Of a DNA stretch of 64,000 nt, positions 4,547 through 36,063 are shown one piece after another. The stretch's first letter is position 1; each line of letters starts with the position of its first letter. The DNA comes from Ruminococcaceae bacterium BL-6 (GTDB lineage: Bacteria; Bacillota; Clostridia; Oscillospirales; Acutalibacteraceae), in the NCBI GenBank assembly GCA_902810075.1, contig LR778135.1:248001-312000 (forward strand), read 5' to 3'. Made by a program: the position numbers and the translations under genes. A model generated the notes under the pieces. It was not told the DNA's origin. It did no database searches and saw only the letters and a list, made by a program, of their open reading frames with translations.

Positions 4547-4585
4547 AAAAGATAGGAGACATGGGAAACCATGCCTCCTATCTTT
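4547..4585 (+). terminator. Intrinsic terminator after the Ldh-family gene
   Basis: The inverted repeat GATAGGAG-N2-CATGG / CCATG-N2-CTCCTATC closes on a GAAA-like loop and is followed by TTTAT. It lies 45 bp after the stop codon. Confidence 0.75.
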
Positions 4586-4674
4586 ATGTCAGAATATCAG
4601 ATAGAATCGGGAATTTTTTCCGGATTCTAAGCACTTTTGACGCGGGACGGCGCAATTTGGCCGAAACAGACTAA

Positions 4675-5500
4675 GAGCCTGTATTCACAAGCGTTTAAGC
4701 AGTGTATGAAAGTGAGAGATTTTAACGATAGTTTCAGCAGAATCGGTAGTAATTTCATAATCCTTGCTGAGACGACGGGAGTTATTCAGCCAACTAAAGG
4801 TACGCTCAACCACCCAACGCCAGGGAAGCTTTTCCCACTGGTGCGGTTTGATTTTTTCCGAAATGTCCACGCCAAGGCCAAGGGCCTTATCCACATCAAG
4901 AACAAAAGTACCGCGATATCCCGCGTCAGCGCAGAATCTTTGGATGGATGAGTAGCGCTTAAAAGCAAGTTTTGCCGGTTCAATGCCCGACTTCGTGTCA
5001 TGAATATTCGCCGCATGGACGACGACTGCAAGCAGATTTCCCATCACGTCTACGACGATGTGCCGCTTGCGTCCTTTCGTTTTTTCCCTCCGTCAATACC
5101 GCGTTTCTCGCTTGCGGCTACAGTCTTGACACTTTGAGAGTCGATAATTCCATAGCTCGGTTCTGCTTTTCGGCCCGCATCTTCACGCGTCTTTACCACC
5201 ATATGTTGCAATATTCTATTCCAAAGGCCGCTGATCCGAGCGCGCCGATAGAAACTGTGTACTGTTGAATAGGGTGGAAAGTCATGCGGTAAATGACGCC
5301 ATTGACAGCCTGTTTTGACAAAATACAAAACGGCATCCGTCAACTCGCGTTTTGACCACTTATATTCTCTTAACCCAGAATATAGTGGTTCTATCTCTGC
5401 CCATTGTTTGTCGGTCAGGTCGCTTGGGTATCCCTGCCTTCGCTTTTCATCTTTTTTCATATGCTCATTTTATCATATCTTCGCTTGTGAATACAACTTC
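4675..5500 (-). mobile_element. IS5-family (IS1031-like) insertion sequence, 826 bp
   Basis: The ends are GAGCCTGTATTCACAAGCG (left) and GAAGTTGTATTCACAAGCG (right, reverse complement), identical over the inner 14 bases. A 3-bp TAA is duplicated on both sides (4672-4674, 5501-5503), matching the TNA target duplication of IS1031-type elements. The element lies in the intergenic space behind the Ldh-family gene and is unrelated in sequence to the IS at 880-1724. Confidence 0.88.
4685..5460 (-). CDS. IS5-family DDE transposase, two frames joined by -1 frameshift
   Basis: The first frame (5460 to 5050) begins MKKDEKRRQGYPSDLTD and contains the first catalytic Asp (GIIDSQSVKT). The second (about 5080 to 4685) contains DAGYRG and the Glu motif WVVERTFSWLNNSRRL. 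At the overlap, GGG-AAA-AAA-CGA allows a one-base backward slip on the A6 run; the shifted product reads GGKKTKGRKRHIVVDVMG, the conserved IS5 sequence at this point. Total coding length (about 255 residues) is normal. A real one-base deletion cannot be excluded without comparison to other copies. Confidence 0.85.
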
Positions 5501-8954: not shown

Positions 8955-9728
8955 TTACCTTGCCCGGATCCCGCGGCGCTGGCGCACCACCTCGTAGCAG
9001 AGGATGCCGCAGGCCACGGAGGCGTTGAGGGAATTGATTCTGCCCAGCATGGGCAGGGAAACCACGAAATCCGATTTTTCCCGGACGAGCCGGCTCACGC
9101 CGAAGCCCTCCGACCCGATGACGAGGGCGGCGGGCCCCGTGAAATCGGCGCTGCACCAGTCCTGCCCATCCAGGTCCGCGGCGTAAATCCAGACGCCGCG
9201 CTTTTTCAGGTCATCCAGGGCCGAAGCGATGTTCGTCACCCTGGCCACCGGAACGTATTCCACCGCCCCGGCGGAAGCCTTTCCCACCGCGTAGGTGAGC
9301 CCCGCGGCGCGGCGGCGCGGGATGATGACCCCATGGGCGCCGGCGCATTCCGCCGTGCGCAGGATCGCCCCCAGATTGTGCGGGTCCTCCAGCTCATCCG
9401 CCACCAGAATGAACGGCGGCTCGCCCCGCTCCTGCGCCACGCGGAAAATATCGTCGACCGTAGCGTATTCCTTTACGGCCGCGAGCGCCGCCACGCCCTG
9501 ATGCTTTGCATGGCCGCACAGATAGTCCAGCTTTTTTTCGTCTACCTCTTTTACGGGGATGCCCTTTTCTCTTGCCCGCGCGATGATTCCCGCGACGGAG
9601 CCGGTCCTGCGGCCTTTCGCCACGAGCAGGCTGTCGATCGGCCGGCCGGCGTTCAGCGCCTCGCTGACGGCGTTCCTTCCGGCGATGACATCGTCGTTGC
9701 GCGGAGATGCGGCTTTTTTCTCTTCCAT
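8955..9728 (-). CDS. rlmB: 23S rRNA 2'-O-ribose methyltransferase, TrmH/SpoU family (RlmB-like)
   Basis: The predicted protein is 257 residues. The N-terminal substrate-binding domain (VIAGRNAVSEALNAGRPID) is followed by the SPOUT knot motifs ILVADELEDPHNLGAILRTA, LVIGSEGFGVSRLV and LPMLGRINSLNASVA, which bind S-adenosylmethionine and give the trefoil knot. It methylates a ribose in rRNA (G2251-type in E. coli). The frame is open to 9809, but the start at 9728 (MEEKKAASPRND) has an AAGGGG site and fits the family. It leads an apparent two-gene unit with the degenerate P-type ATPase. Close relatives (TrmH-like tRNA methylases) cannot be separated by motif alone. Confidence 0.88.
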   Translation of the reverse strand: MEEKKAASPRNDDVIAGRNAVSEALNAGRPIDSLLVAKGRRTGSVAGIIARAREKGIPVKEVDEKKLDYLCGHAKHQGVAALAAVKEYATVDDIFRVAQERGEPPFILVADELEDPHNLGAILRTAECAGAHGVIIPRRRAAGLTYAVGKASAGAVEYVPVARVTNIASALDDLKKRGVWIYAADLDGQDWCSADFTGPAALVIGSEGFGVSRLVREKSDFVVSLPMLGRINSLNASVACGILCYEVVRQRRGIRAR

Positions 9729-9912
9729 GATTGAACTGCCCCTTAACTGTGATCCGGCTTTTATCGCATTTCCGATGCGGAACCTGTTCCCGGGTCCGCG
9801 ATCATCCATGAAATCGCTGGAATTATTGTAGATATAATCAATTTATTATAGCATAAAAAAGAGCAGTTGGGAATGATCCTGTCGGAAAATAGCGAAGCGG
9901 AAGGAAACGCCG

Positions 9913-10179
9913 TCACAGGGTCGTCAGCAGATAGAGCAGTACCCCCGCGGCCGCCAGAAGAAGCGGGATTCCCGCCCGCGTGACCCAAAAGGTGAACCGC
10001 CGCCTTTTTTTCATGCCGGACGGCGCATCCAGCTTCCTCAGAATCTTCCGGGCCTCTTTTTCCAGAAGCTCCCGTTCCGCCCTGGCGTATTCCGGCCGAA
10101 CCACCAGATAGGCCCGCTCGTAATAGACGTTCCCCGTCTCCTTCACTTCGATGATCTGTCTGCTGACGCCGCGAATCAT
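9913..10179 (-). CDS. Small conserved-looking membrane protein, unknown function
   Basis: This 88-residue protein starts MIRGVSRQIIEV behind a GGGGGG site. Residues 1-60 are charged and helical (RAERELLEKEARKILRKL), and residues about 66-86 form one membrane helix preceded by KKRRR, suggesting the N-terminus is cytosolic. I do not recognise a family. It is upstream of rlmB on the same strand with a 184-bp gap. Confidence 0.6.
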   Translation of the reverse strand: MIRGVSRQIIEVKETGNVYYERAYLVVRPEYARAERELLEKEARKILRKLDAPSGMKKRRRFTFWVTRAGIPLLLAAAGVLLYLLTTL

Positions 10180-10297
10180 AGATGCGCCCCCCGTTTTTGT
10201 GTTTTCCTTATTTTTGTCAGGATACAAAAAAAATATACAGCTCAAAATTGTGGAAAAGCATGGGCAGACAGGCGTTTATACGGTTTGTATTTACATT

Positions 10298-10428
10298 GGT
10301 TGACATAAAATCAGTGGAGAACCGGGTGGATACTGTGGAAAACTCGGTGGAAAATGTGGATAAGTCCCCGGGAAAAGAACGGTTCGAAAGATATGCACCG
10401 ATTGTGAATATGTTTTTTTATGTCAACC
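10298..10428. other. DnaA-box-like cluster inside a 13-bp inverted repeat
   Basis: Perfect inverted repeats GGTTGACATAAAA (10298-10310) and its complement (10416-10428) enclose five 9-mers resembling the reverse complement of the DnaA box: AGTGGAGAA (10313), GGTGGATAC (10325), TGTGGAAAA (10334), GGTGGAAAA (10346) and TGTGGATAA (10355, a perfect box). Spacing alternates 12, 9, 12, 9 bp. No dnaA or rpmH gene is nearby, so this is not an obvious oriC; a DnaA-titration or regulatory site is possible. Reading the region as a protein gives a low-complexity VENxVD peptide with no clear binding site. Confidence 0.5.
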
Positions 10429-10523
10429 GCAGAATGGCCGCAAAACGGATTCGATTTAACATACAGTATTGAAACCTTTACGAAACCTTTACGGGCGGGG
10501 GTGTTTTTCTTTTCCGCGGGCTG

Positions 10524-10732
10524 TGTTATAATAACCTCACGGCGTAAGCGGAAGCAAAGCTTCCGACGCCTGAGAGAACATTGAAGCATTTCATGTTATA
10601 ATAACCTCACGGCGTAAGCGGAGGCGAAGCCTCCGACGCCTGAGAGAGCATTGAAACATGCCTTGCGGCATGTTATAGATAACCTCACGGCGTAAGCGGA
10701 GGCAAAGCCTCCGACGCCTGAGAGAGCATTGG
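10524..10732 (+). repeat. Three tandem copies of the promoter-hairpin repeat
   Basis: Units start at 10524, 10594 and 10671 (periods 70 and 77 bp). Each begins TGTTATA(AT/GAT)AACCTCA, forms a bulged hairpin whose inner stem differs between copies (CGGAAGC/GCTTCCG in the first, CGGAGGC/GCCTCCG in the others), and continues TGAGAGARCATTG. The second copy ends in a compact inverted repeat, AACATGCC/GGCATGTT. Extended -10 boxes (TGTTATAAT) mark the first two junctions. The array lies upstream of the 8-oxoguanine glycosylase gene in the same orientation. Confidence 0.8.
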
Positions 10733-26288: not shown

Positions 26289-28015
26289 TGCTTCGCCTCC
26301 TCGCTGGAAAGCTGGGAAAGGCAGATTTCCCGGTATGTGCCGCAGCTTTGGAACAGCTCGCTGTGCGTGCCGGTCCCAACGATCCTGCCGTCTTCAAACA
26401 CAAGGATCCGGTCGGTGTCCTTCACAACGCCCACCCGCTGGGATACCAGAAGAACCGTCTGGGTTTTGCTGTTTTCCCGGATCGCCCTGCGCAGCCTGGA
26501 ATCGGTCAGAAAATCCAGCGCGCTGGATGCGTCGTCCAGAATCAGGATCTCGGGGTTTGCGACGACGGCGCGGGCGATGGTCAGTCTCTGCCGCTGGCCG
26601 CCGGACAGGTTCGCGCCGCCGCGCTGCACCGGAAAATCGTATTTCTGCGGGAGCGTTTGAATAAATTCATCCGCCTGGGCGATTTCCGCCGCTTTTCGGA
26701 CCGCCCGGATATCCGCCCGCTCGTTTCCCCAGCGGATGTTTTCCGCCACGGTGCCGGAAAACAGAAGCGCGTGCTGGGACACGATGGCTGCTTTTTTGCG
26801 AAGATCCTGAAGAGGATACTGTTTTACAGGCACGCCGTCGACCAGAATCACCCCGGATGTCGCGTCGTAAAAACGGGCGATCAGATTGATGAACGTCGAT
26901 TTCCCGGAGCCCGTTCCGCCGATGATTCCGATGGTTTCACCCCTTTGAATCGCCACGCTGATCTGTTCGAGCGCGCGGCCGCCGGCACCGCCATACCCAA
27001 AGGAGACGCCGCGGAATTCCACCGCCGGCGCGGACGGAACAGGCTGGATGGCGCCGGCCGTGTCTTTCATGTCGGGCTGCGTGTCCATGACCTCTTTCAC
27101 CCGCGCTCCGGACGCCATTGCCTTGGTGATGAGGATGACCAGATTCGATATAAAAAGCAGAGAGACCAATATCTGGTTGGCATACTGGATAAAAGCGATG
27201 ATCTGGCCCTGGGCGAGCCGGCCGGCCCGAATCTGGATATTTCCCGCCCACAGAATCAGCACGATCGCGATATTGACGATCAGCGAGGTCATGGGGTTGA
27301 ACAGAGCTGAAATCCGGCCGATGGCAAGGCCGTTTTCCGTCAGCTCGCCGTTCGCCCCGCGGAAACGCTCCGTTTCTTCTTTTGTTTTGGAAAAGGCGCG
27401 GATGACGCGGATTCCCGACAGATTTTCCCGCAGAATGACGGCGAGCCCGTCGAGCTTCTTCTGGTAGGAACGGTACAGCGGGGCCACGTTTTTCGACAGA
27501 AAGTAGATGATCCCGGCCAAAACGGGGGTCGCGGCAAGCAGGATCAGGGCGATCCGGGCATCCAGCAGGAACGACATGATGATCGACCCGATACAGATAA
27601 ACGGCCAGCGGATCAGCACGCGGATCATCATCGCCACCATCTGCTGAAGCTGATTGATATCGTTTGTGATCCGGTTGGTCAAAGTCGGCGCGCCGAACCG
27701 GTCCGACTGGGAATAGGAAAAGGACAGGATACGGTCGAAAACCGCGTTTCTCAAATCGGTTCCGAAGCCCTGCGAAGCGCGTGCCGCACAATATTGGCAG
27801 ACCACCGCGCAGCCGTATCCGCACAGCGCCAGCGCCACCATGATGCCCCCCATTTTCAAGACATAACCCGTGTCGCGCCGGGAAACGCCGTTATTGATGA
27901 TCAGGGCCATGATGGTCGGAAGAAGCAGCTCTAAAATGGCCTCCATGAATTTGAAGATCGGTCCTACGATACATTCTTTTTGATACTTTTTTAAGTATGA
28001 CGTCAGATGAAACAA
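26285..28015 (-). CDS. ABC exporter half-transporter, degenerate-site subunit
   Basis: A 576-residue half-transporter with six helices and an ATPase domain. Walker A is IGGTGSGKST (about 363) and the signature is canonical (NLSGGQRQRL), but the Walker B catalytic Glu is Asp (ILILDDASSALD). That is the pattern of the TM287-like partner in heterodimeric exporters. It is the first gene of the pair and is transcribed away from a LysR regulator encoded 134 bp upstream, suggesting regulation by that protein. Confidence 0.92.
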   Translation of the reverse strand: MFHLTSYLKKYQKECIVGPIFKFMEAILELLLPTIMALIINNGVSRRDTGYVLKMGGIMVALALCGYGCAVVCQYCAARASQGFGTDLRNAVFDRILSFSYSQSDRFGAPTLTNRITNDINQLQQMVAMMIRVLIRWPFICIGSIIMSFLLDARIALILLAATPVLAGIIYFLSKNVAPLYRSYQKKLDGLAVILRENLSGIRVIRAFSKTKEETERFRGANGELTENGLAIGRISALFNPMTSLIVNIAIVLILWAGNIQIRAGRLAQGQIIAFIQYANQILVSLLFISNLVILITKAMASGARVKEVMDTQPDMKDTAGAIQPVPSAPAVEFRGVSFGYGGAGGRALEQISVAIQRGETIGIIGGTGSGKSTFINLIARFYDATSGVILVDGVPVKQYPLQDLRKKAAIVSQHALLFSGTVAENIRWGNERADIRAVRKAAEIAQADEFIQTLPQKYDFPVQRGGANLSGGQRQRLTIARAVVANPEILILDDASSALDFLTDSRLRRAIRENSKTQTVLLVSQRVGVVKDTDRILVFEDGRIVGTGTHSELFQSCGTYREICLSQLSSEEAKQ

Positions 28016-28149
28016 AACAATCCCCCCATCACTTTTCGGGTTCTATTATAAACTCAATGCTTTCATATGGAAAATACATATTTTTGTGGTATGATATATA
28101 AAAAAAGTATGGGAATCCATAAAAGGCTCCGCCTGAAGGGGGAAGAAAT

Positions 28150-29016
28150 ATGAATTTGAAACAGCTGGAATACTTTATGACAATCGCGGAAGAGCATCAG
28201 ATCACGGCCGCCGCGAAAAAACTGCATATCGCCCAGCCGCCGCTGAGCTATCAGCTGAGCCTGCTGGAAAAAGAGCTTGGCGCCACCCTGATCAAGCGCG
28301 GGCCGAGGAACGCGGAGCTGACCGACGCGGGCAAGCTGCTGTACAGGCGGGCCGGGCAGATTCTGGCCATGACCTCCGCCACGGTACACGAGGTGGAAAG
28401 CTACGGCAAGGGCATGCGCGGCGTGCTGTCGATCGGGGCCATCACCTCGTCGGGCGGGATCGTGCCGAACCGGCGCATGCTGGAATTCACGCAGCGATAC
28501 CCGGATATCCGGTTTGAGATCCACGAGGGAAACACCTTTGCCGTCATCGATATGCTGGAAAAGGGGATCATCGATCTGGGCATCGTGCGCACACCGTTCC
28601 CGAACGACCGGCTCCACTGCCGCTATTCCAGCCCCGAGCCGATGGCGGCGGTGATGGCCCCGGAGCGCGTCTGCGGCAGGGACGCGGGCCGCGTCACGCT
28701 TCGGGAGCTCGAAAGCGAGCCGCTGATTATTTACCGGCGGTACGAATCCCTTATTCGGGAAGCGTTTTCAGGGGAGGGCTTACATCCCTTTATCTGCTGC
28801 CTGAACGAAGACGCCAGAACAACTTATACCTGGGCGCTGAAAGGCTTTGGCGTCGGCATGATCCCCAAATCCATTCTGCGCGTGCTGAATCCGATCGGGC
28901 TGATCTGCAAGGATATCGTGAGCGGCAGGCTCACGACACAGATTGCGGTCATATGGGAAAAAGGCCGGTACCTTTCCCCCCTGGCACAAAGGTTTGTCGA
29001 GTTGCTGGAAGAATGA
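28150..29016 (+). CDS. LysR-family transcriptional regulator
   Basis: 288 residues. The N-terminal winged HTH (MNLKQLEYFMTIAEEHQIT, AAKKLHIAQPPLSYQLSLLE) is followed by a periplasmic-binding-protein-like effector domain (GVLSIGAITSSGG, IDLGIVRTPFP, GVGMIPKSILRV). The start has a GGGGGAAG site. It is divergent from the ABC exporter; the shared 134-bp spacer contains a -10-like TATGAT at about 28090 for this gene. It is expected to autoregulate and to control the exporter in response to a small molecule. Confidence 0.92.
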   Translation: MNLKQLEYFMTIAEEHQITAAAKKLHIAQPPLSYQLSLLEKELGATLIKRGPRNAELTDAGKLLYRRAGQILAMTSATVHEVESYGKGMRGVLSIGAITSSGGIVPNRRMLEFTQRYPDIRFEIHEGNTFAVIDMLEKGIIDLGIVRTPFPNDRLHCRYSSPEPMAAVMAPERVCGRDAGRVTLRELESEPLIIYRRYESLIREAFSGEGLHPFICCLNEDARTTYTWALKGFGVGMIPKSILRVLNPIGLICKDIVSGRLTTQIAVIWEKGRYLSPLAQRFVELLEE

Positions 29017-29063
29017 TCTGATGGATCATCAATCCCGGCGGCGGGGTCGCCCGACCGTTTTGA

Positions 29064-29252
29064 TTATTGTTCCTGCTCTTCGCCGTCCCGGTCCAGGTGG
29101 TCTAAAGCGTAGCGGCAGCACTGCAGCACCAACAGATTAAACGAAACATTATTTTTTTCCGCCGTTTTGTTTAGCTCTTCGAAAAGCTCCTCCGTGAAAC
29201 GGATGGTTCTTGGAATATTGGCATTTGAGAATGGCTTGATAATTTTGAACAT
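29064..29252 (-). CDS. Small ribbon-helix-helix (Arc/CopG-like) protein
   Basis: 62 residues. The segment NIPRTIRFTEELFEELNKTA, then NNVSFNLLVLQCCRYALDHL, fits a ribbon-helix-helix DNA-binding fold, in which the beta strand contacts DNA as a dimer. The C-terminus is acidic. AGGAAGG lies about 11 bp before the ATG. It is separated from the upstream TnpB-like gene by a terminator, and no toxin partner is evident, so a stand-alone repressor is more likely than an antitoxin. Confidence 0.7.
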   Translation of the reverse strand: MFKIIKPFSNANIPRTIRFTEELFEELNKTAEKNNVSFNLLVLQCCRYALDHLDRDGEEQEQ

Positions 29253-29460
29253 GAAAACACAACCCTTCCTAAATATTGAAATTGTAACCGATTTAAAAAT
29301 GCTAATAAAATATAACCTCTATTGGTTGTGATCTTGGTTATGAATAAGAAGAATGTAAAAATATAAACACAAAAGGCTTTTCCGCGGCACACAGATGTGA
29401 AAGAAATCTTATGAAATTTGCCGGTACGGTGTCCAGACGTGATTTTTATAAAAACGCAGA

Positions 29461-29497
29461 AAAAGGGCTGTCTCACAAGTAATTGTGAGACAGCCCC
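29461..29497 (-). terminator. Strong terminator after the TnpB-like gene and its structured 3' region
   Basis: Read on the minus strand, GGGCTGTCTCACAA pairs perfectly with TTGTGAGACAGCCC around TTAC, followed by TTTT. It closes the transcript about 120 nt after the TnpB-like stop codon. Confidence 0.88.
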
Positions 29498-29604
29498 ATA
29501 TTTAAATAGCTGCACTTGCAACGGTAAAACCGTTTCCGCTCTGCGGATTTGCTCTGCACATGGGATTCCCCGCATGTCCGGAGGCATGATGCGGCAGCCA
29601 GAGC
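29498..29604 (-). ncRNA. Candidate structured RNA directly 3' of the TnpB-like gene (guide-RNA-scaffold-like)
   Basis: On the minus strand, starting 15 nt after the stop codon, the sequence folds by eye into consecutive stems. An outer stem GCTCTG/CAGAGC (29599-29604 with 29551-29556) encloses CCGCAT/ATGCGG and a small GGG/CCC hairpin. Then come TCCGC-aga-GCGGA and, immediately adjacent, AACGGT-ttt-ACCGTT. About 22 unpaired nt (29498-29519) follow before the terminator. In TnpB and TldR loci the omega/guide RNA lies at the 3' end of the gene, with the guide after the last scaffold stem; by analogy the 22 nt would be the guide. That is inference, since no transcript or homologues could be checked. 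Confidence 0.5.
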
Positions 29605-29619
29605 ATCCAAAATGAAAAA

Positions 29620-31155
29620 TTACTTTAAGATCAGCCGCACGGCGGACCGGAGATCGGGCGATTGGCAAAGCTTTTTCCAGACGGCATATTTTTTAGGGTC
29701 GTTTTGGAAAGCGCCGCCCAAATCCCGGAGATACCGGCTCAGCTCGTCGTACATCGGCTGATAATCCGTCATGTTCTGCGGCAGGGTGCACTCAAAGCCC
29801 AAAGTTCTGTTATAAAACAAAAGGGAGTCCTTTTGCTTTATAACGGTGAGCGGGACCTTGTCGCGCTGATATTTGATGAGCCTTCCGGCGAGGTTTTCGC
29901 TGCCGATCCATTCGGCCTCCGAGGCATAGCCGCATTCAATGCATGCGAAAAGCTCGCTTGAAATCCTGTTCCGGAAAGTCCGGTTCGCACAGCGGGGACA
30001 GGTGAAAAAAAGCCCGTTGGCGCTTACCTCGACGGGCGGCGGGAGCCTCTTTTCGGGCAGCTTGTATTTTAAAATGCCTGCGAGCGCCGCATATTGCCCG
30101 TTGGAAAGGCAGCGTCCGTCCTGAAGCGGCATCCGGTCGTTTTTTCCGCCGTTTGCTTCCAGAATCACCTGGGAACGGTTTTCCCATGCCGTTTTCACGA
30201 TCCTGTTGCAAAGGGAATATAAAATCTGATTCGGCGCGGCCTGCTCCGCGATTCTGCCGTGCTTCAGGAATTTTCCGCCGCGGTCGAAAACGGTGTAATT
30301 CAGCCCGCCGAACGGGCTTCTGGAGACGCCCATCGTGGAAGTGGTGGAAAGGACCGGGGCCGGCCCGCACTGCATGTTCACCATCAAATAGTAGCGGCCC
30401 TTCTTTTTGGTCAGGCGCGCGGTGTGCAGCAGGCCCGGGTTTTCGAGGGCTTTCTTCAAGTCTTCGTACTGCCTTTTTCCGAAAGCGAGCGGCACGATCA
30501 CGTATCTTTTTTTTCCCGCCTGATTGGATACGGCGGGCATGCCCTTCGCCACATACCGAAGGCTCAGGCTGCTGGTCACGGTTTTGCTGAAATATCCATC
30601 CAAAGAATTCAGCAGGTAAAGCTTTGCGTAAAACCGGTCCTTGAATTTGTCGTAGAGCAGGCAGTAATCGCGGTTCACGGCATATCGGCCGAAGTACAGC
30701 GAGCGCGGCCTGCCCGCCCGTTCGATCACTTTTGAGCAGTCGGATTCGAATTTTCCGCGGCTCGTTTCTTCCTTTTCAAAGCGTTTGATGCAGCGGGAAA
30801 CGGCGGCGTGGTAATCAGCCGGATCGAGATACGCGAGCGGATACCGCGCGCGGGGGTTCTTCCGTTTCTGTTCGATATAGGATGCCGCCAGGGAGGCGAA
30901 TTCGATTTTCAGCGAATCCTTAAAGGGCTGCACGTGAAATTCGTTCAGGTCTTTTCCCGTCTTTTTGTCGATCAGGGTAAGGAGCTTCCGCTGCGAAATC
31001 TTCGTTCCGGACTCCACCAGCGTGTCGACCTGATACTCGAAACGGGTGAGAAGCATCTGCAAAGCCCGGGAATACCGCAGAAGGGCGCGGTCCATCCACG
31101 CGCATTTGCGCTTGCTGGGCCGGTAAAGCTGAAGCATCAGTGTTTTGTAAGCCAT
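29620..31155 (-). CDS. TnpB/Cas12-like protein with substituted RuvC catalytic residues (TldR-like candidate)
   Basis: Counting from the likely start MAYKTLMLQLYRPSKRK, the protein is 511 residues (the frame is open to 31212). It has an N-terminal beta strand plus helical bundle and a WED-like barrel (KRYVIVPLAFG, ARLTKKKGRYYLMVNM). A split RuvC domain follows, with a four-cysteine zinc ribbon (CPRC at 386/389, CIEC at 405/408), then about 85 extra residues. RuvC-I reads MGVSRSPFGGLNYTVFD, with Ser278 where active nucleases have Asp. RuvC-II keeps Glu333 (QVILEANGG). RuvC-III reads CGYASEAEWIGSENLA, with Glu where the DxN Asp residues are expected. DNA cleavage therefore looks lost, as in nuclease-dead TnpB-like repressors. 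It lies about 97 bp behind the SpoIIE-type gene, same strand. No IS605 ends or TnpA are seen. A naturally divergent but active TnpB is the alternative. Confidence 0.7.
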   Translation of the reverse strand: MAYKTLMLQLYRPSKRKCAWMDRALLRYSRALQMLLTRFEYQVDTLVESGTKISQRKLLTLIDKKTGKDLNEFHVQPFKDSLKIEFASLAASYIEQKRKNPRARYPLAYLDPADYHAAVSRCIKRFEKEETSRGKFESDCSKVIERAGRPRSLYFGRYAVNRDYCLLYDKFKDRFYAKLYLLNSLDGYFSKTVTSSLSLRYVAKGMPAVSNQAGKKRYVIVPLAFGKRQYEDLKKALENPGLLHTARLTKKKGRYYLMVNMQCGPAPVLSTTSTMGVSRSPFGGLNYTVFDRGGKFLKHGRIAEQAAPNQILYSLCNRIVKTAWENRSQVILEANGGKNDRMPLQDGRCLSNGQYAALAGILKYKLPEKRLPPPVEVSANGLFFTCPRCANRTFRNRISSELFACIECGYASEAEWIGSENLAGRLIKYQRDKVPLTVIKQKDSLLFYNRTLGFECTLPQNMTDYQPMYDELSRYLRDLGGAFQNDPKKYAVWKKLCQSPDLRSAVRLILK

Positions 31156-31251
31156 GTTCCATTCCATTCCGATTCCGCCGTTTGATATGCCGCCGTACCA
31201 TACGGGAAACATATCATGCTTTTGCGCGCCGCCTCGAGGGCTTGCGAAGTG

Positions 31252-31914
31252 TCATCGGTGAACCCGGAAAACAAGCGCCGAAAGGTCATCCTTCGGCTTC
31301 CCGAAGGAAAGGGAATCGCCCGCCGCGAGCAAAAGGCGGGCCAGCTTTTCCGCGGTTACCCGGGGGCCCCAAGCGTTCCCCATGTAGGACGAAATCCGGC
31401 TGAGGGTCCAGCCGCTTTTCAGATCCCGCTCCGCCCCCGCGCGCAGCATGCCGTTTCCGACGGCGACGATCGTATCCGCATCCCGGACATTTGAAATTCC
31501 GCTCCGGATGATCCTGCCCTGCCTGGTTTTCCGTTCCGTTTTCAGCCCGGCCGGCTTTCCCCGGCGAAGAAGGATGACATCCGGGGTTTCCATCTGGGAA
31601 ATAAAGATCGTTCCGCTGTAAATGACCTGCAGGATCGTGAAGGCGGAATGATCGACGCTTTCGTTTCCGCCGGCGGGCTGCGATTCCACGATCATGTCGG
31701 CGATCTCTTCGATCGGCTCTCCCCTTGCGAGCATGGCCGACATCATTTTGACGGCCAGCGAGGCCAGCATGGCCGCCTTGGCGCCGCCGCCCCTGCCGTC
31801 CGCCAAAATGGCCGTGACGCCCGCTTCGCTCCGCACGATTTCGATCCGGTCCCCGCACAGCTTCCCGCCGGATTGGTTGACACAGTCTCCGTACGCGTCA
31901 ATTCGGGCGGCCAT
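31252..31914 (-). CDS. SpoIIE/PP2C-type serine phosphatase-like protein linked to the sensory hydrogenase
   Basis: 220 residues. The PP2C/SpoIIE fold is shown by VTAILADGRGGGAKAAMLAS (metal-binding Asp near residue 39, here DGRGGG rather than DGMGSG), ESVDHSAFTILQV, and DTIVAVGNGML with a late KPKDDLSALVFRV (metal Asp). It overlaps the upstream hydrogenase gene by 17 bp, so it is translationally coupled. Group C sensory hydrogenases are commonly encoded with protein kinases or phosphatases, consistent with dephosphorylating a regulatory protein in response to H2. The target is unknown. Confidence 0.85.
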   Translation of the reverse strand: MAARIDAYGDCVNQSGGKLCGDRIEIVRSEAGVTAILADGRGGGAKAAMLASLAVKMMSAMLARGEPIEEIADMIVESQPAGGNESVDHSAFTILQVIYSGTIFISQMETPDVILLRRGKPAGLKTERKTRQGRIIRSGISNVRDADTIVAVGNGMLRAGAERDLKSGWTLSRISSYMGNAWGPRVTAEKLARLLLAAGDSLSFGKPKDDLSALVFRVHR

Positions 31915-33625
31915 TGTCTTCCCCTTTTTTTGAAATGATGTTTTTGGTCAGCTGGCGCAGCGCCACTTCCGTTTCGGATGTGGTTTCGCCGAGAAGGTTG
32001 GCGATTTCCTGCACGGCCCGCATCTGCCGGCTGACCGCTTCGTTTGCGAACGCGACGGTCTCTTCCGCGGTGCGGCGCTGATTTTCCCGGATCTGCTCTT
32101 CGCGCGTGATGTCTTCCAGCAGGACGAACAGAAAATGGCTGTTTTCAACGAGAACGACGGTCTGTTTCACGATCAGGTTCAGGTTTTTATAAGTCTGCTT
32201 GTGGTTCAGGATATTTTTCCCGCTCGTCAGCACCTGCTCGAAATCCGGGCTGGGAAGAAAACGCCGGATCGGCTGGCCGACGGACTTTTCATCCAGATGA
32301 AGCAGCCTTTCCGCCGAGGGGTTGAACTGATCGATGTTCAAGGAAGCGTTCAGGATCAGAATACCGGTGGGGGAATTCTCCACGACCGCGTTGGACATGC
32401 TTTCCGCAAGCTCCCGCATATACGGGATGCACATGCGGATATCGGCTTTTCCCTGCAGCACGGCGATCGCTTTTTCGCGGCAGCTGTTATACCCGCAGCA
32501 GCCGCAGTTCAGCTCTTTGTCCGGCGAGGTTTTCCCGGTGGAAGCCAGCACCCTTTGAATATCTTTCTCGTCGATCGTGACCGTTTTCCCGGAGCGGATG
32601 CGGAATTTCTTTGAAAACGGTGCGGCTACCCCTTCCGTAAGCGCGGCGGCGGCCTCGTTTCGGCGCTTCACGTTCCGGATCAGCACGTCTTTGGATTTCA
32701 GGAAGCTCGCGTGCATCATCCTCAATACCGGGCCGCCCAGGCATCCGCCGGTGCAGGCGTTCAGCTCCAGAAAATAGCCGGAAAGATCGTCGCGCACGAT
32801 GGAATCCAGGACTTCGATGCAGCGGTCGACCCCGTCGACGCTGAGGCATTCGTATGCCTTGCGCTCTTCCCGACGCAGATTCTTGATGATCCCGCCGGGG
32901 GCGGGGTAATACCGCGGGAGCGTATTGGTCAAAGTCCTGCCGTTGCGGTCCTGCTTCGAAAAATCGATGCCTTGCTCCTGAAACCATTTTTCCAGCTCTT
33001 CGAAGGTCAGAACGGCAAACAGGGCGTTGCCGTTGTCCGGGTCGAGACATTCAAATTTTTTGGAGATGCACGGCCCGATAAAAACGATCTTCGCCCTGAC
33101 CCCATAAATTTCCTTCATCATGCGGGAATGCGCGATCACCGGGGTCACGACCGGCGCGAGCTGAGGCACCAGGGACGGGTAATTCTTTTCGATCAGCAGG
33201 TTGACGGAGGGGCAAGCCGAAGTGAGGATGTTTTTCATTCTGTGCTTTCGGACCAGCTTTTCATATTCCCGCGTGACCTGCTCCGCGCCGATGGCCGTTT
33301 CTTCCACATGGGCGAACCCGAGCTGCTTCAGCGCGGCTGAGATTTCCAGGATCCCGCATTGCTGAAACGCCGCGATATAGGACGGCGCCAGCGATACATA
33401 CAGCTTTTCGCCCGATTTGATCGCCTTTTTCACCTTCGGCAGGTCGCTGTTGATCGATTTTGCGTTCTGCGGACAGATCAAAAGACAGTTGCCGCAGTAG
33501 ATGCATTCGTCGCCGATGATGTGGATCTGCTCATCCCGGTATGCGATCGATTTTACGGGACAGTTCCGTATGCACTTATAGCAGTTCTTGCAGTTCGACT
33601 TATTTAATTTAATGATGTCTTCCAT
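31898..33625 (-). CDS. Sensory (group C-type) [FeFe] hydrogenase with PAS domain
   Basis: 575 residues. Two N-terminal 4Fe-4S ferredoxin clusters (CKNCYKCIRNCP, CIYCGNCLLICP) precede the H-cluster domain. L1 is LTSACPSV, with Ala in place of the proton-relay Cys of catalytic enzymes; L2 is GPCISKKFE; L3 is NACTGGCLGGP. A further Cys cluster (CGCCGYNSCREKA, about 390) and a PAS domain (about 430-530) follow, then a coiled coil. The Ala substitution and PAS fusion are marks of HydS-type H2 sensors. It leads an operon with the SpoIIE-type phosphatase and perhaps the TnpB-like gene. A promoter-hairpin repeat lies directly upstream. Confidence 0.9.
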   Translation of the reverse strand: MEDIIKLNKSNCKNCYKCIRNCPVKSIAYRDEQIHIIGDECIYCGNCLLICPQNAKSINSDLPKVKKAIKSGEKLYVSLAPSYIAAFQQCGILEISAALKQLGFAHVEETAIGAEQVTREYEKLVRKHRMKNILTSACPSVNLLIEKNYPSLVPQLAPVVTPVIAHSRMMKEIYGVRAKIVFIGPCISKKFECLDPDNGNALFAVLTFEELEKWFQEQGIDFSKQDRNGRTLTNTLPRYYPAPGGIIKNLRREERKAYECLSVDGVDRCIEVLDSIVRDDLSGYFLELNACTGGCLGGPVLRMMHASFLKSKDVLIRNVKRRNEAAAALTEGVAAPFSKKFRIRSGKTVTIDEKDIQRVLASTGKTSPDKELNCGCCGYNSCREKAIAVLQGKADIRMCIPYMRELAESMSNAVVENSPTGILILNASLNIDQFNPSAERLLHLDEKSVGQPIRRFLPSPDFEQVLTSGKNILNHKQTYKNLNLIVKQTVVLVENSHFLFVLLEDITREEQIRENQRRTAEETVAFANEAVSRQMRAVQEIANLLGETTSETEVALRQLTKNIISKKGEDNGRPN

Positions 33626-33752
33626 ATGATTTCCACCGAACGGCCGCAGGCAAATTTCGGCTTTCTTAAAAGCCTGTTCCTGTTTTTTTTGAGGAGAGCA
33701 GTCACGCGTTCGGAAGCCTCGCTTCCGCTGGATCGCTTTCTATTGATATAAA

Positions 33753-33882
33753 TGTATTATAACATGATTGCAATATTTTAAAGCGGTAAAATTTCCGACC
33801 CCGCAAAGCTCATCATGTTTCAATGCTCTCTCAGGCGTCGAAGGCTTTGCCTTCGCTAACGCCGTGAGGCTATTATAACATG
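33753..33882 (-). repeat. Promoter-hairpin repeat upstream of the sensory hydrogenase
   Basis: Read on the minus strand it begins TGTTATAATAGCCTCA. The inner stem CGAAGGC/GCCTTCG differs from other copies on both sides (compensatory). Then come TGAGAGAGCATTGA and an inverted repeat AACATGAT ... ATCATGTT, ending in an extended -10 (TGT-TATAAT at 33756-33761). The 5' UTR that follows contains another CGGAAGC/GCTTCCG stem (33700-33735). Confidence 0.75.
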
Positions 33883-33982
33883 AAAGCCCTCGGATTTGAT
33901 ACGATTCGGATAAAGAAATATTTGTCTTTTTCCATCCGGCGGATGCTCGTAACCGTAGCCGCCGAAATGCACGGAACGCCCG

Positions 33983-34041
33983 CCAATGCTCTCTCAGGAG
34001 TCGGAAGCTTTGCTTCCGGCTCCTGGGGTTATTATACCATA
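33983..34041 (-). repeat. Diverged single unit of the promoter-hairpin repeat
   Basis: On the minus strand: TGG-TATAAT followed by AACCC, then CAGGAG-c-CGGAAGC-aaa-GCTTCCG-a-CTCCTG and AGAGAGCATTGG. The outer stem is CAGGAG/CTCCTG here instead of GGCGT/ACGCC elsewhere, a complete compensatory change. The rest of 33626-34321 has no convincing gene. Confidence 0.7.
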
Positions 34042-34321
34042 TCCCAATGGGCAGGAAAAGCAAATGCGGACGATAAGGCAATCTTCATAAAAATTCTATC
34101 ATTGTTAAATATGGTTTTTTAAGAACGGCGCTTTTGACACACGCGGCATTTTTTCAAAATGCCTGAAAATATAGGCGCTATGCGGGATTTGAAGGATTTT
34201 TAGAAAGATGAACCGCCATTGATCCGCTCAAAACGCCCCGTCTGGGCCGGATTTCGTTGACGGACCGTAAAAGGCATGCTAAGGTCATAAATGAGAGATT
34301 TTAAGGATCGGAGGGATCAGT

Positions 34322-34579
34322 ATGAATATTGTTGTTTGCGTAGGGAGCTCGTGCTATTCGAAAGATTCCTGCGGCGTGATACGAGAGCTCCGGAAGCTGA
34401 TACAAAAATACGATTTGAGCGATGTCACAGTAAGCGCTTCGTTCTGTTTGGGACACTGCAGCCGCGAGGGTGTGGCTGTGGAAATCGGCGGCGAGCGGTT
34501 GAACGGCGTCACGGCGGAGAATGCGAAGAATATTTTCGAGAAATACATTTTAAGCTCTGTGGCCTGTTCATCCCGGTAG
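34322..34579 (+). CDS. Small thioredoxin-like [2Fe-2S] ferredoxin (NuoE/HydC C-terminal type)
   Basis: 85 residues. The fold and spacing VVCVGSSCYSKDSC ... SFCLGHCSREGVAVEIGG match the thioredoxin-like 2Fe-2S domain of NuoE and HydC subunits, with cysteines near 6/11/17 and 42/46. It starts behind GGAGGG and ends 68 bp before the hydrogenase gene. It probably passes electrons to that hydrogenase. Confidence 0.85.
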   Translation: MNIVVCVGSSCYSKDSCGVIRELRKLIQKYDLSDVTVSASFCLGHCSREGVAVEIGGERLNGVTAENAKNIFEKYILSSVACSSR

Positions 34580-34647: not shown

Positions 34648-36063
34648 TTGAAACTGTTTGATACCAATGTGCAGCAGCTGAAATATGAGGTATTGAAAGA
34701 AGTGGTCCGCCTTGCATCCCGGGGGGAGCTGAAAGAAAAGCTTCATGAGATACCAAAGAAAATCGTGCCGGGCCCGAAGGCCACGCTGCGCTGCTGCATT
34801 TACTGCGAAAGGGCGATTATAGAAGAACGCGTGAAGCTGGCGATGGGCGGGAACAAAAACGACCCGAACGTGGTGGAAGTGGTCGACATCGCCTGCGACG
34901 CGTGCCCGACGGGCCGCATGTACGTGACCGAAATGTGCCGCGGGTGCGTCGCGCATCGCTGTCAGGCCGCCTGCCCTGTCGGGGCGATCAGCATCGTCGA
35001 CCACAAGTCCGTGATCGACCGCGCGAAATGCAGGGAGTGCGGCTTATGCATGAAGGCGTGCCCTTACAACGCGATCGCGGAGCAGGAGCGCCCCTGCATC
35101 CTCGCGTGCAAGGCAAAGGCCATCTCGCTGGATGAGAACAACAAGGCGAAAATCGATCCCGAAAAATGTGTCCGCTGCGGGGCGTGCGTGCGTCAGTGCC
35201 CGTTCGGGGCGATCGTTGACAAGTCGTTCCTGCTGGATGCCGTCCGCCTGCTGCAGAAGTCGGGAAACGGGAAGAATTTCAATTTGTACGCCGTGGTGGC
35301 TCCCGCCATCGCAAGCCAGTTTTCCTACGCAAAGCTGGGGCAGGTCGTGTCCGGGTTAAAGAAAATCGGTTTTTGCAGCGTCGTCGAAGCGGCGCTCGGC
35401 GCGGATATCGTGGCGGAGAAGGAATCGAAAGAGCTTGCGGAAAAGGGGTTCCTCACGACTTCGTGCTGCCCGGCCTTTGTGCAGTACGTCAGGTCCGCTT
35501 TTCCGAAACTGGCCGGAAATATCTCCGGCAACGCTTCCCCGATGGTGGAAACGGCAAAGCTGATCAAACAGAAAGACAAGACGGCGAAGGTTGTGTTTAT
35601 CGGCCCCTGCATCGCCAAAAAAATGGAATTTCAAAAAAAGGAGCTTGCGGGAGCGGTCGACTGCGTGATCACCTTTGAGGAACTGCAGGCGCTTTTGGAC
35701 GGGTTGGACGTCAACCTGCAGGAGCTTCCGGAGGAAGACCTGGCTGACGCCTCTTACTTCGGCAGGATCTTTGCCAAGCACGGGGGCGTCACCGAAGCCG
35801 TCCTGCATGCGCTCGAGGAAAGCAAAATCGATTTTCAGGTCAATCCGACGATGTGCGACGGGCTGGAAGAATGCCGCGCGGCGCTTTTGAAGGCCAACGC
35901 GGGAAAGCTGGATTCCAATTTCATCGAGGGCATGGCCTGCCCGGGCGGGTGCATCGGCGGCGCCGGATGCATCAGTTCGAGCCATGCGGCGAAAAACAAG
36001 ATGAACCTGGACAATTATGCCAAAAAAGCGCTGGATCTTCCGGAACCTGTTTTAACCAGGTGA
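34648..36063 (+). CDS. [FeFe] hydrogenase, catalytic domain with multiple 4Fe-4S clusters
   Basis: 471 residues, starting at TTG with GGAAAGG 8 bp upstream. The N-terminal region has many cysteines, including CRGCVAHRCQAACP and two ferredoxin motifs (CRECGLCMKACP, CVRCGACVRQCP). The H-cluster motifs are TTSCCPAFVQY (L1, with the proton-relay Cys present), FIGPCIAKKMEF (L2) and EGMACPGGCIGGAGC (L3). It would make or oxidise H2 with ferredoxin during fermentation. It forms an operon with the small 2Fe-2S protein and the Cys-containing protein downstream, and is divergent from the sensory hydrogenase operon. Confidence 0.93.
   Translation: MKLFDTNVQQLKYEVLKEVVRLASRGELKEKLHEIPKKIVPGPKATLRCCIYCERAIIEERVKLAMGGNKNDPNVVEVVDIACDACPTGRMYVTEMCRGCVAHRCQAACPVGAISIVDHKSVIDRAKCRECGLCMKACPYNAIAEQERPCILACKAKAISLDENNKAKIDPEKCVRCGACVRQCPFGAIVDKSFLLDAVRLLQKSGNGKNFNLYAVVAPAIASQFSYAKLGQVVSGLKKIGFCSVVEAALGADIVAEKESKELAEKGFLTTSCCPAFVQYVRSAFPKLAGNISGNASPMVETAKLIKQKDKTAKVVFIGPCIAKKMEFQKKELAGAVDCVITFEELQALLDGLDVNLQELPEEDLADASYFGRIFAKHGGVTEAVLHALEESKIDFQVNPTMCDGLEECRAALLKANAGKLDSNFIEGMACPGGCIGGAGCISSSHAAKNKMNLDNYAKKALDLPEPVLTR

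Follow-up and report, generated by a model that had tools for sequence, protein, structure and literature searches.

The question raised by this locus is what role a TnpB-like protein that has lost its nuclease site might play at the end of a row of hydrogenase genes. The window analysed here is a stretch of 64,000 nt from Ruminococcaceae bacterium BL-6. From its letters, a preliminary description had taken the product of the gene, termed dTnpB below, for a nuclease-dead TnpB/Cas12-like protein and a candidate RNA-guided regulator. It is apparent from the data below that dTnpB is probably an RNA-guided transcription factor of hydrogenase genes, which would act through a guide RNA and a TAM-like box and is likely an activator. 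The features on which this proposal builds are listed in Table 1.

Table 1. Features of the dTnpB locus, in window coordinates
Feature	Position	Strand	Basis or remarks
Intrinsic terminator, 13-bp hairpin plus T run, ending the RNA	29459..29496	(-)	Fold
Predicted guide TATTTAAATATG; approximately first 7 nt match the target	29497..29508	(-)	Tail after scaffold
Predicted guide RNA scaffold: hairpins plus pseudoknot (loop GCTGC with 3′ GCAGC)	29509..29610	(-)	Comparative alignment
dTnpB, nuclease-dead TnpB/Cas12f-like protein	29620..31155	(-)	Fold and RuvC residues; complete protein
Additional domain at the C-terminus of dTnpB; HicB-like fold, middling score	29623..29886	(-)	Structure match
RuvC-III Glu codon of dTnpB	29911-29913	(-)	In place of Asp
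RuvC-II Glu codon of dTnpB	30157-30159	(-)	Catalytic Glu kept
RuvC-I Ser codon of dTnpB	30322-30324	(-)	In place of Asp
SpoIIE-type (PP2C-like) phosphatase	31252..31914	(-)	PF07228, 30.4 bits; dTnpB neighbour
Group C-like sensory [FeFe]-hydrogenase	31898..33625	(-)	Fer4, H-cluster domain, C-x2-C-x4-C-x16-C, PAS
Predicted promoter downstream of target: weak -35 TTTTCC (34059-34054), -10 TATAAT (34036-34031)	34031..34059	(-)	
Predicted target: TAM-like flank AAAAAACCA (34120-34112) plus 7-nt guide match TATTTAA (34111-34105)	34105..34120	(-)	
Thioredoxin-like [2Fe-2S] protein, divergent from sensory genes	34322..34579	(+)	21.4 bits, below 24.8 cut-off
[FeFe]-hydrogenase, divergent from sensory genes	34648..36063	(+)	Domain match

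The open reading frame around dTnpB extends from 29620 to 31212 on the minus strand. The start Met used by most homologues corresponds to position 31155 here, and residues are numbered from the Met at 31167 (515 aa). The structure was predicted with confidence, and from residue 1 to approximately residue 438 it resembles Cas12f and TnpB; the closest solved folds are those of Cas12f1 and nuclease-deactivated Cas12f (PDB 7wju, 9i8y and 9n9c), and the best sequence matches to Cas12f lie between RuvC-II and RuvC-III. In an alignment with AsCas12f1, the Asp residues of RuvC-I and RuvC-III fall on Ser282 and Glu419 of dTnpB, and the RuvC-II position is occupied by Glu337. The intact D-E-D site expected of an IS605/IS607 TnpB nuclease is absent, and the Cys4 ribbon is intact. 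Approximately 80 residues of the protein's own follow the Cas12f/TnpB-like part. The nuclease-dead TnpB/Cas12-like assignment, the zinc ribbon and the extra C-terminal region of the preliminary description were all confirmed.

An intact RuvC-I Asp, which would have spoken against that assignment, was sought in the relatives as well. In an alignment of 116 homologues and the query, Asp was found at RuvC-I in none of the 116 rows with a letter there; RuvC-II is Glu in 89 rows, and RuvC-III is Glu in 83 and Asp in 13. Among the ordinary TnpBs that served as controls for this motif check, P0117, P0118 and L122 have both the RuvC-I and RuvC-III Asp, and L118 has that of RuvC-I only. When the alignment was used as a query against 7997 candidates, 93 members were obtained before a drop to an E value of 4e-12, and because of this drop the family looks discrete among the candidates scored. 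Judged from these alignments, the predicted nuclease death of dTnpB is inherited and is no recent accident.

The dTnpB gene is the last in a conserved row, sensory [FeFe]-hydrogenase, SpoIIE-type phosphatase and dTnpB, which is kept down to approximately 24% identity and bears out the preliminary remark that the gene neighbourhood differs from that of known dead TnpBs. The phosphatase gene lies upstream of dTnpB on the same strand in 19 of 19 loci, and upstream of the phosphatase lies a relative of the hydrogenase-PAS gene, which is labelled as such in 18 of them and was located by a search in the remaining one (L052). Little space separates these genes, and in L051, L052 and L060 there are overlaps of 4 nt; between the phosphatase and dTnpB genes of L053-L055 lies a gene for an aldehyde-alcohol dehydrogenase (Pfam assignment made on L053). 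Seven further loci (L131-L136 and L145) were found, five of them with the same order; L145 is a fragment at a contig end, and in L135 dTnpB stands elsewhere, with neither hydrogenase neighbours nor a phosphatase beside it.

The hydrogenase of the window has the features of group C sensory enzymes, namely an H-cluster domain, a C-terminal 4Fe-4S motif and a PAS domain. A looser form of the C-terminal Cys motif is present in 22 of 22 relatives (PAS was scanned in the window protein only). Genes resembling those for NuoE, NuoF and HydA, of the electron-bifurcating hydrogenase type, precede the sensory hydrogenase gene in many loci. Across 21 loci (L052, L003, L131, L135 and L145 were left out), the identities of dTnpB correlate with those of the hydrogenase-PAS protein (r 0.978) and of the phosphatase (r 0.871).

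Full-length dTnpB was found in 15 of 391 class genomes, one copy in each, a patchy distribution; named carriers of homologues are Caproiciproducens, Christensenella and an Oscillospiraceae MAG. None of three same-genus genomes has dTnpB, nor does any of them have a close relative of the window's hydrogenase-PAS gene. A mobile setting, named beforehand as evidence that would count against a regulatory role, left no sign: the copies are single, the gene row is the same in all loci read other than L135 and the fragment L145, no repeat (CRISPR) array was detected at 28000-34400 of the window and no relatives of dTnpB were found in viral contigs. Independent domestication of dTnpB, as suggested earlier, is a plausible hypothesis.

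Several other sequences were observed in these searches. A 62-aa ORF with a ribbon-helix-helix look (by eye) and no Pfam match lies just downstream of the terminator, at 29064-29252 on the minus strand. L001 and L002, from the window's own genome, exceed the PF07282 cut-off with open frames of 387 and 426 aa and are probably ordinary TnpBs. G528:C56:4378-4998 and G601:C75:2982-3368 each have one internal stop and match the middle of the family profile; they are possibly decayed members outside the class. A FuFi-1 RNA (Rfam RF02986, 79.6 bits) is situated at 4584-4795 on the minus strand of L003, in the neighbourhood of a close relative's dTnpB locus.

A structured RNA was detected directly 3′ of dTnpB, at first in 19 loci and finally in 26 of 26; those of L135 and L136 were first recognized by eye, and the search pattern was widened afterwards. 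Its architecture comprises GGTGC-loop-GCACC, a hairpin CTTAC-AGA-GTAAG or TCCGC-AGA-GCGGA, a variable third hairpin and GTGCAGC, the GCAGC of which pairs with GCTGC in the first loop to form a pseudoknot. In an alignment (A2) of 25 of the 26 RNAs, L064 being left out, 96.3% of cells in the two hairpins and the pseudoknot are paired, as against 85.6% in shuffles and 18-54% in slid structures. The pseudoknot is 100% paired, with GC/AU exchanges, and cells without a pair are confined to the first hairpin and come, by our reading, from rows with another first-loop length (L057, L058, L135 and L136). Cells changed on both sides number 54, versus 18.8 in shuffles, and 10 of 15 pairs show such changes, versus 6.0, although related sequences may outscore these shuffles without structure. 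Further pair types of the RNA gave no excess over shuffles (92 of 500), and the folding energy of the window scaffold was no better than that of shuffles (z -0.87; -1.73 and -1.23 at two other loci).

In 24 of the 26 rows, the tail that follows GCAGC reads TAT[CT]T; L136 has TATTA and L135 has GATTA, and variation is greater beyond. After the tail comes a terminator-like hairpin, the sequence of which differs among loci. In a search of the 391 class genomes with an RNA model (R1, for which 14 of the 15 strong loci had served as the training set), the 15 strong matches fell in the 15 genomes with full-length dTnpB, one in each. Four weak matches were also obtained, and no TnpB-like ORF was seen near them. 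In the RNAs of TnpB, TldR and Cas12f, the guide stands at the position of the 3′ tail. The arrangement of TldR type, a guide RNA gene that adjoins the protein gene and carries its guide at the 3′ end, was found here in silico.

When loci were searched with their own tails, boxes were found upstream of hydrogenase genes, with a common 5′ flank that had not been selected for and that is mostly AAAAACC[AGT]. The box is usually preceded by AAAAACCN; some sites in L133, L134, L065 and L143 have ACC or GCC only. A search with the flank alone recovered many of the boxes, together with tandem partners in L053-L056. In the window, the predicted target has the sensory genes on one side and the divergent [2Fe-2S] and hydrogenase genes on the other.

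The correspondence was evaluated in 20 of 22 loci, L064 (a near copy of L061) and L052 (hydrogenase missed by ORF calling, no promoter) being left out. A match of 6-10 nt to the locus's own tail was found next to CC in 15 of the 20, and the remaining 5 fell below 6 nt. The summed match next to CC is 126, while permuted guides gave a mean of 59.8 and a maximum of 80 in 400, and other offsets along the RNA (-40 to +8) a maximum of 71. When guides were swapped among 16 loci, own guides scored 107 versus a mean of 75.8 (sd 5.9), and 1 of 20000 swaps scored as high; when each family was represented by a single locus, 2 of 720 did so in each of three choices. In the table of 16 sites, the distal box was taken where boxes are tandem, and some sites were first seen by eye. 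The most telling case is L136, which has a variant guide, TATTAAATAA, and a promoter with AAAAACCG-TATTAAATAA, a 10/10 box. These comparisons lend strong support, at the level of sequence, to the view that guides and boxes change together between lineages.

Not every locus conforms. The own-guide match next to CC is 3 nt only in L057 and L058, where no convincing box was found, and 5 nt only in L055 and L056; in L062 it is 4 nt, and the flank-defined box breaks at position 4. The own guide of L052 matches its AAAAACCA box over 4 nt only (by eye). For single loci, the fraction of permuted guides that were as good is 0.105 in L004, 0.09 in L055 and 0.255 in L062. In the window's own genome of 3.43 Mb, AAAACCNTATTTA occurs once (reversed control, also 1), and AAAACCATATTTAA occurs once exactly and once with a mismatch (control, 4 matches); since control counts are similar, the uniqueness of the box is mild support only.

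Some further boxes and tails were noted. In L136, a second, inverted box, ACCGTATTAAATAT, was seen by eye near the first, at approximately 1965-2015, and suggests possible paired binding. Two TATCTGT boxes, 14 bp apart at 55 and 69 on the minus strand of L058, are situated upstream of a HydC-like gene and match 7 and at least 6 nt of the own guide, without a CC flank. L135 encodes a distant dTnpB (9145-10728, minus strand) with the RNA tail GATTAAATAAGG; an exact search of this 19.5-kb locus for [GT]ATTAAAT returned the RNA alone, so its target may be elsewhere.

The position of the boxes relative to predicted promoters was determined for 22 sites from 17 loci, four proximal tandem sites being kept outside the test. 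L061 and L064 (near copies of L132), L052, L057 and L058 (no accepted box), and loci without a promoter region were not part of this set. The -35 hexamer was sought 12-75 nt from the box. It is apparent that the predicted -35 hexamer follows every distal box (18 of 18) at a distance of either 39-42 or 52-54 nt; in shuffles, a mean of 6.9 and a maximum of 10 (of 200) fell in two such 4-nt windows. Because several promoters of one family are alike, a thinned set of 10 sites was prepared, in which two pairs are still 0.52 and 0.59 alike, and the -35 was sought at 12-90 nt; 10 of 10 sites fell in the windows, versus a mean of 4.4 and a maximum of 7 (of 150) in shuffles. For each of the four proximal tandem sites, the distance to the -35 is 23. 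In the window, 52 nt separate the first guide-matched base from the -35; the weakness of this -35 and the 486 nt between the box and the start of the hydrogenase gene speak against the proposal.

Other elements share these regions. Rex-like boxes (motif TTGACAAn..TTAACAA) overlap or follow the same hydrogenase promoters in L053-L056, L132 and L138, so these promoters may be under layered control by redox state and H2. Downstream of the predicted promoter and ahead of the sensory hydrogenase gene, at 33821-34018 of the window, there are two 35-nt repeats, 86% alike, each of which starts a GC-rich hairpin followed by TATTATA; a third similar hairpin was seen by eye near 33700.

These results are best explained by an RNA-guided transcription factor of a new class, which resembles TldR but has activator-like geometry. 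This reading builds on the computed loss of the RuvC site, the fold, the gene row, the RNA structure, the guide-box correspondence and the box-promoter geometry. RNA loading, DNA binding, activation and H2 control of dTnpB are steps that we infer. The sensory hydrogenase-phosphatase-dTnpB row is followed by a predicted guide RNA of approximately 115 nt before the terminator hairpin; its pseudoknotted scaffold would bind dTnpB, and its short 3′ tail would serve as a guide with a working length of approximately 6-10 nt. The complex would recognize the TAM-like flank and the guide-matching box upstream of hydrogenase promoters and, RuvC being dead, would bind without cutting. Because the box stands at fixed distances upstream of the -35, the outcome would most likely be activation of transcription in the manner of class I activators, and not a block to polymerase. 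The H-cluster/PAS protein and the phosphatase would probably signal the H2 level to dTnpB, closing a feedback loop, and a hydrogen sensor may thereby have dTnpB as its output arm.

The most prominent alternative is that the same RNA-guided binding serves repression, dTnpB hindering polymerase or an activator at hydrogenase promoters as a TldR would. The TldRs described in the available text of PMC13418256 do repress, and the window box lies between two divergent units, where negative feedback would make sense. The 18 distal sites, however, stand 39-54 nt upstream of the predicted -35 without overlapping the promoter, and a spacing confined to two narrow windows, with the proximal sites all at 23, is not needed for occlusion. 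The geometry of the predicted sites therefore speaks against repression of TldR type, which we consider unlikely here. The analogy to TldR drawn in the preliminary description holds for the dead TnpB and its guide RNA, but the direction it implied may be wrong, site geometry pointing to activation.

The remaining alternatives dispense with RNA-guided control of these promoters. If the boxes belonged to an ordinary DNA-binding protein, their likeness to the RNA tail would be due to chance, and dTnpB and its RNA would act otherwise; the shortness of the matches, the failure of several loci and the presence of the Rex-like boxes, which show other factors at these promoters, fit such a view. It is improbable, given that permuted and slid controls score below own guides and that guide and box co-vary, the L136 variant included. 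A small, structured RNA with a terminator could also act as antisense by pairing with mRNA, dTnpB being its chaperone, but the boxes are upstream of a predicted promoter on the same strand, so they are mostly not transcribed from it, and a TAM-like flank is unexpected for RNA pairing; this we regard as very improbable. Hardly credible is the view that dTnpB has no regulatory role and is a TnpB in decay, a mobile TnpB or the effector of a CRISPR Cas12f system. The Cas12f/TnpB fold, the source annotation 'putative transposase' and the patchy distribution are in line with it, whereas the conserved full-length frame, the fixed gene row, the co-inheritance with the hydrogenase, the conservation of RNA and box and the lack of a repeat array in that part of the window all oppose it.

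The proposal of a natural RNA-guided activator may be extended to a complete route in Clostridia, from H2 through the H-cluster/PAS protein and the phosphatase to dTnpB with its guide RNA (upstream site, fixed spacing, a guide of 6-10 nt and a HicB-like contact domain) and on to the genes for hydrogenase and, in certain species, for alcohol dehydrogenase. This full chain is a serious possibility, though we advance it tentatively. There is a real chance that dTnpB is an upstream RNA-guided activator. If true, a metabolic, chromosomal class with upstream-activator geometry would be added to RNA-guided transcription factors; the targets of TldRs described in the available text of PMC13418256 are flagellin genes. 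It would also offer a candidate, testable answer to how sensory [FeFe]-hydrogenases relay the H2 signal to transcription, a route left open for putative sensory enzymes in the available text of PMC6776011, PMC8163306 and PMC13104023, and would be of consequence for the balance of fermentation, for H2 transfer between species and for the formation of methane.

Guide-using dead TnpB repressors (TldR) and dCas12f complexes in the PDB are already known. TldRs reportedly were presented by Wiegand in 2024 as TnpB-like, nuclease-dead repressors. No hydrogenase-linked dead TnpB was found among the open-literature matches listed, the dead clades of Wiegand 2024 and Altae-Tran 2023 lying outside this comparison; PMC11728337, as far as its available text goes, deals with an ordinary tnpB of B. 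subtilis. dTnpB resembles TldR in its TnpB/Cas12 fold, lost RuvC residues, adjoining guide RNA gene, TAM with short seed and chromosomal target. It differs in standing in a hydrogenase row, whereas TldR accompanies fliC, csrA or oppF; in its extra HicB-like domain and its linked sensor and phosphatase; and in a box upstream of the -35 at fixed spacing, with guides that match only 6-10 nt. One TldR in the available text of PMC13418256 works with guides as short as 6 nt.

Cas12f1 and deactivated Cas12f provide the closest solved folds, and 9n9c is likewise called nuclease-deactivated. Unlike Cas12f, dTnpB has no CRISPR array at 28000-34400, has lost its catalytic residues and has a C-terminal domain of its own. 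Natural dCas12f works with a sigma factor, whereas no sigma factor gene is present in the conserved dTnpB row. The group C systems of PMC6776011 share with this row an H-cluster/PAS protein beside a Ser/Thr phosphatase, which, in the available text, 'may modify downstream regulators'. L053-L056 are near an aldehyde-alcohol dehydrogenase gene, as is reported there for Ruminococcus albus, in which a cluster with hydrogenase and alcohol/aldehyde dehydrogenase genes changes 111-fold in co-culture (PMC6776011). In that account, as far as it is available, the DNA-binding regulator is left open, whereas here dTnpB and its guide RNA follow the phosphatase.
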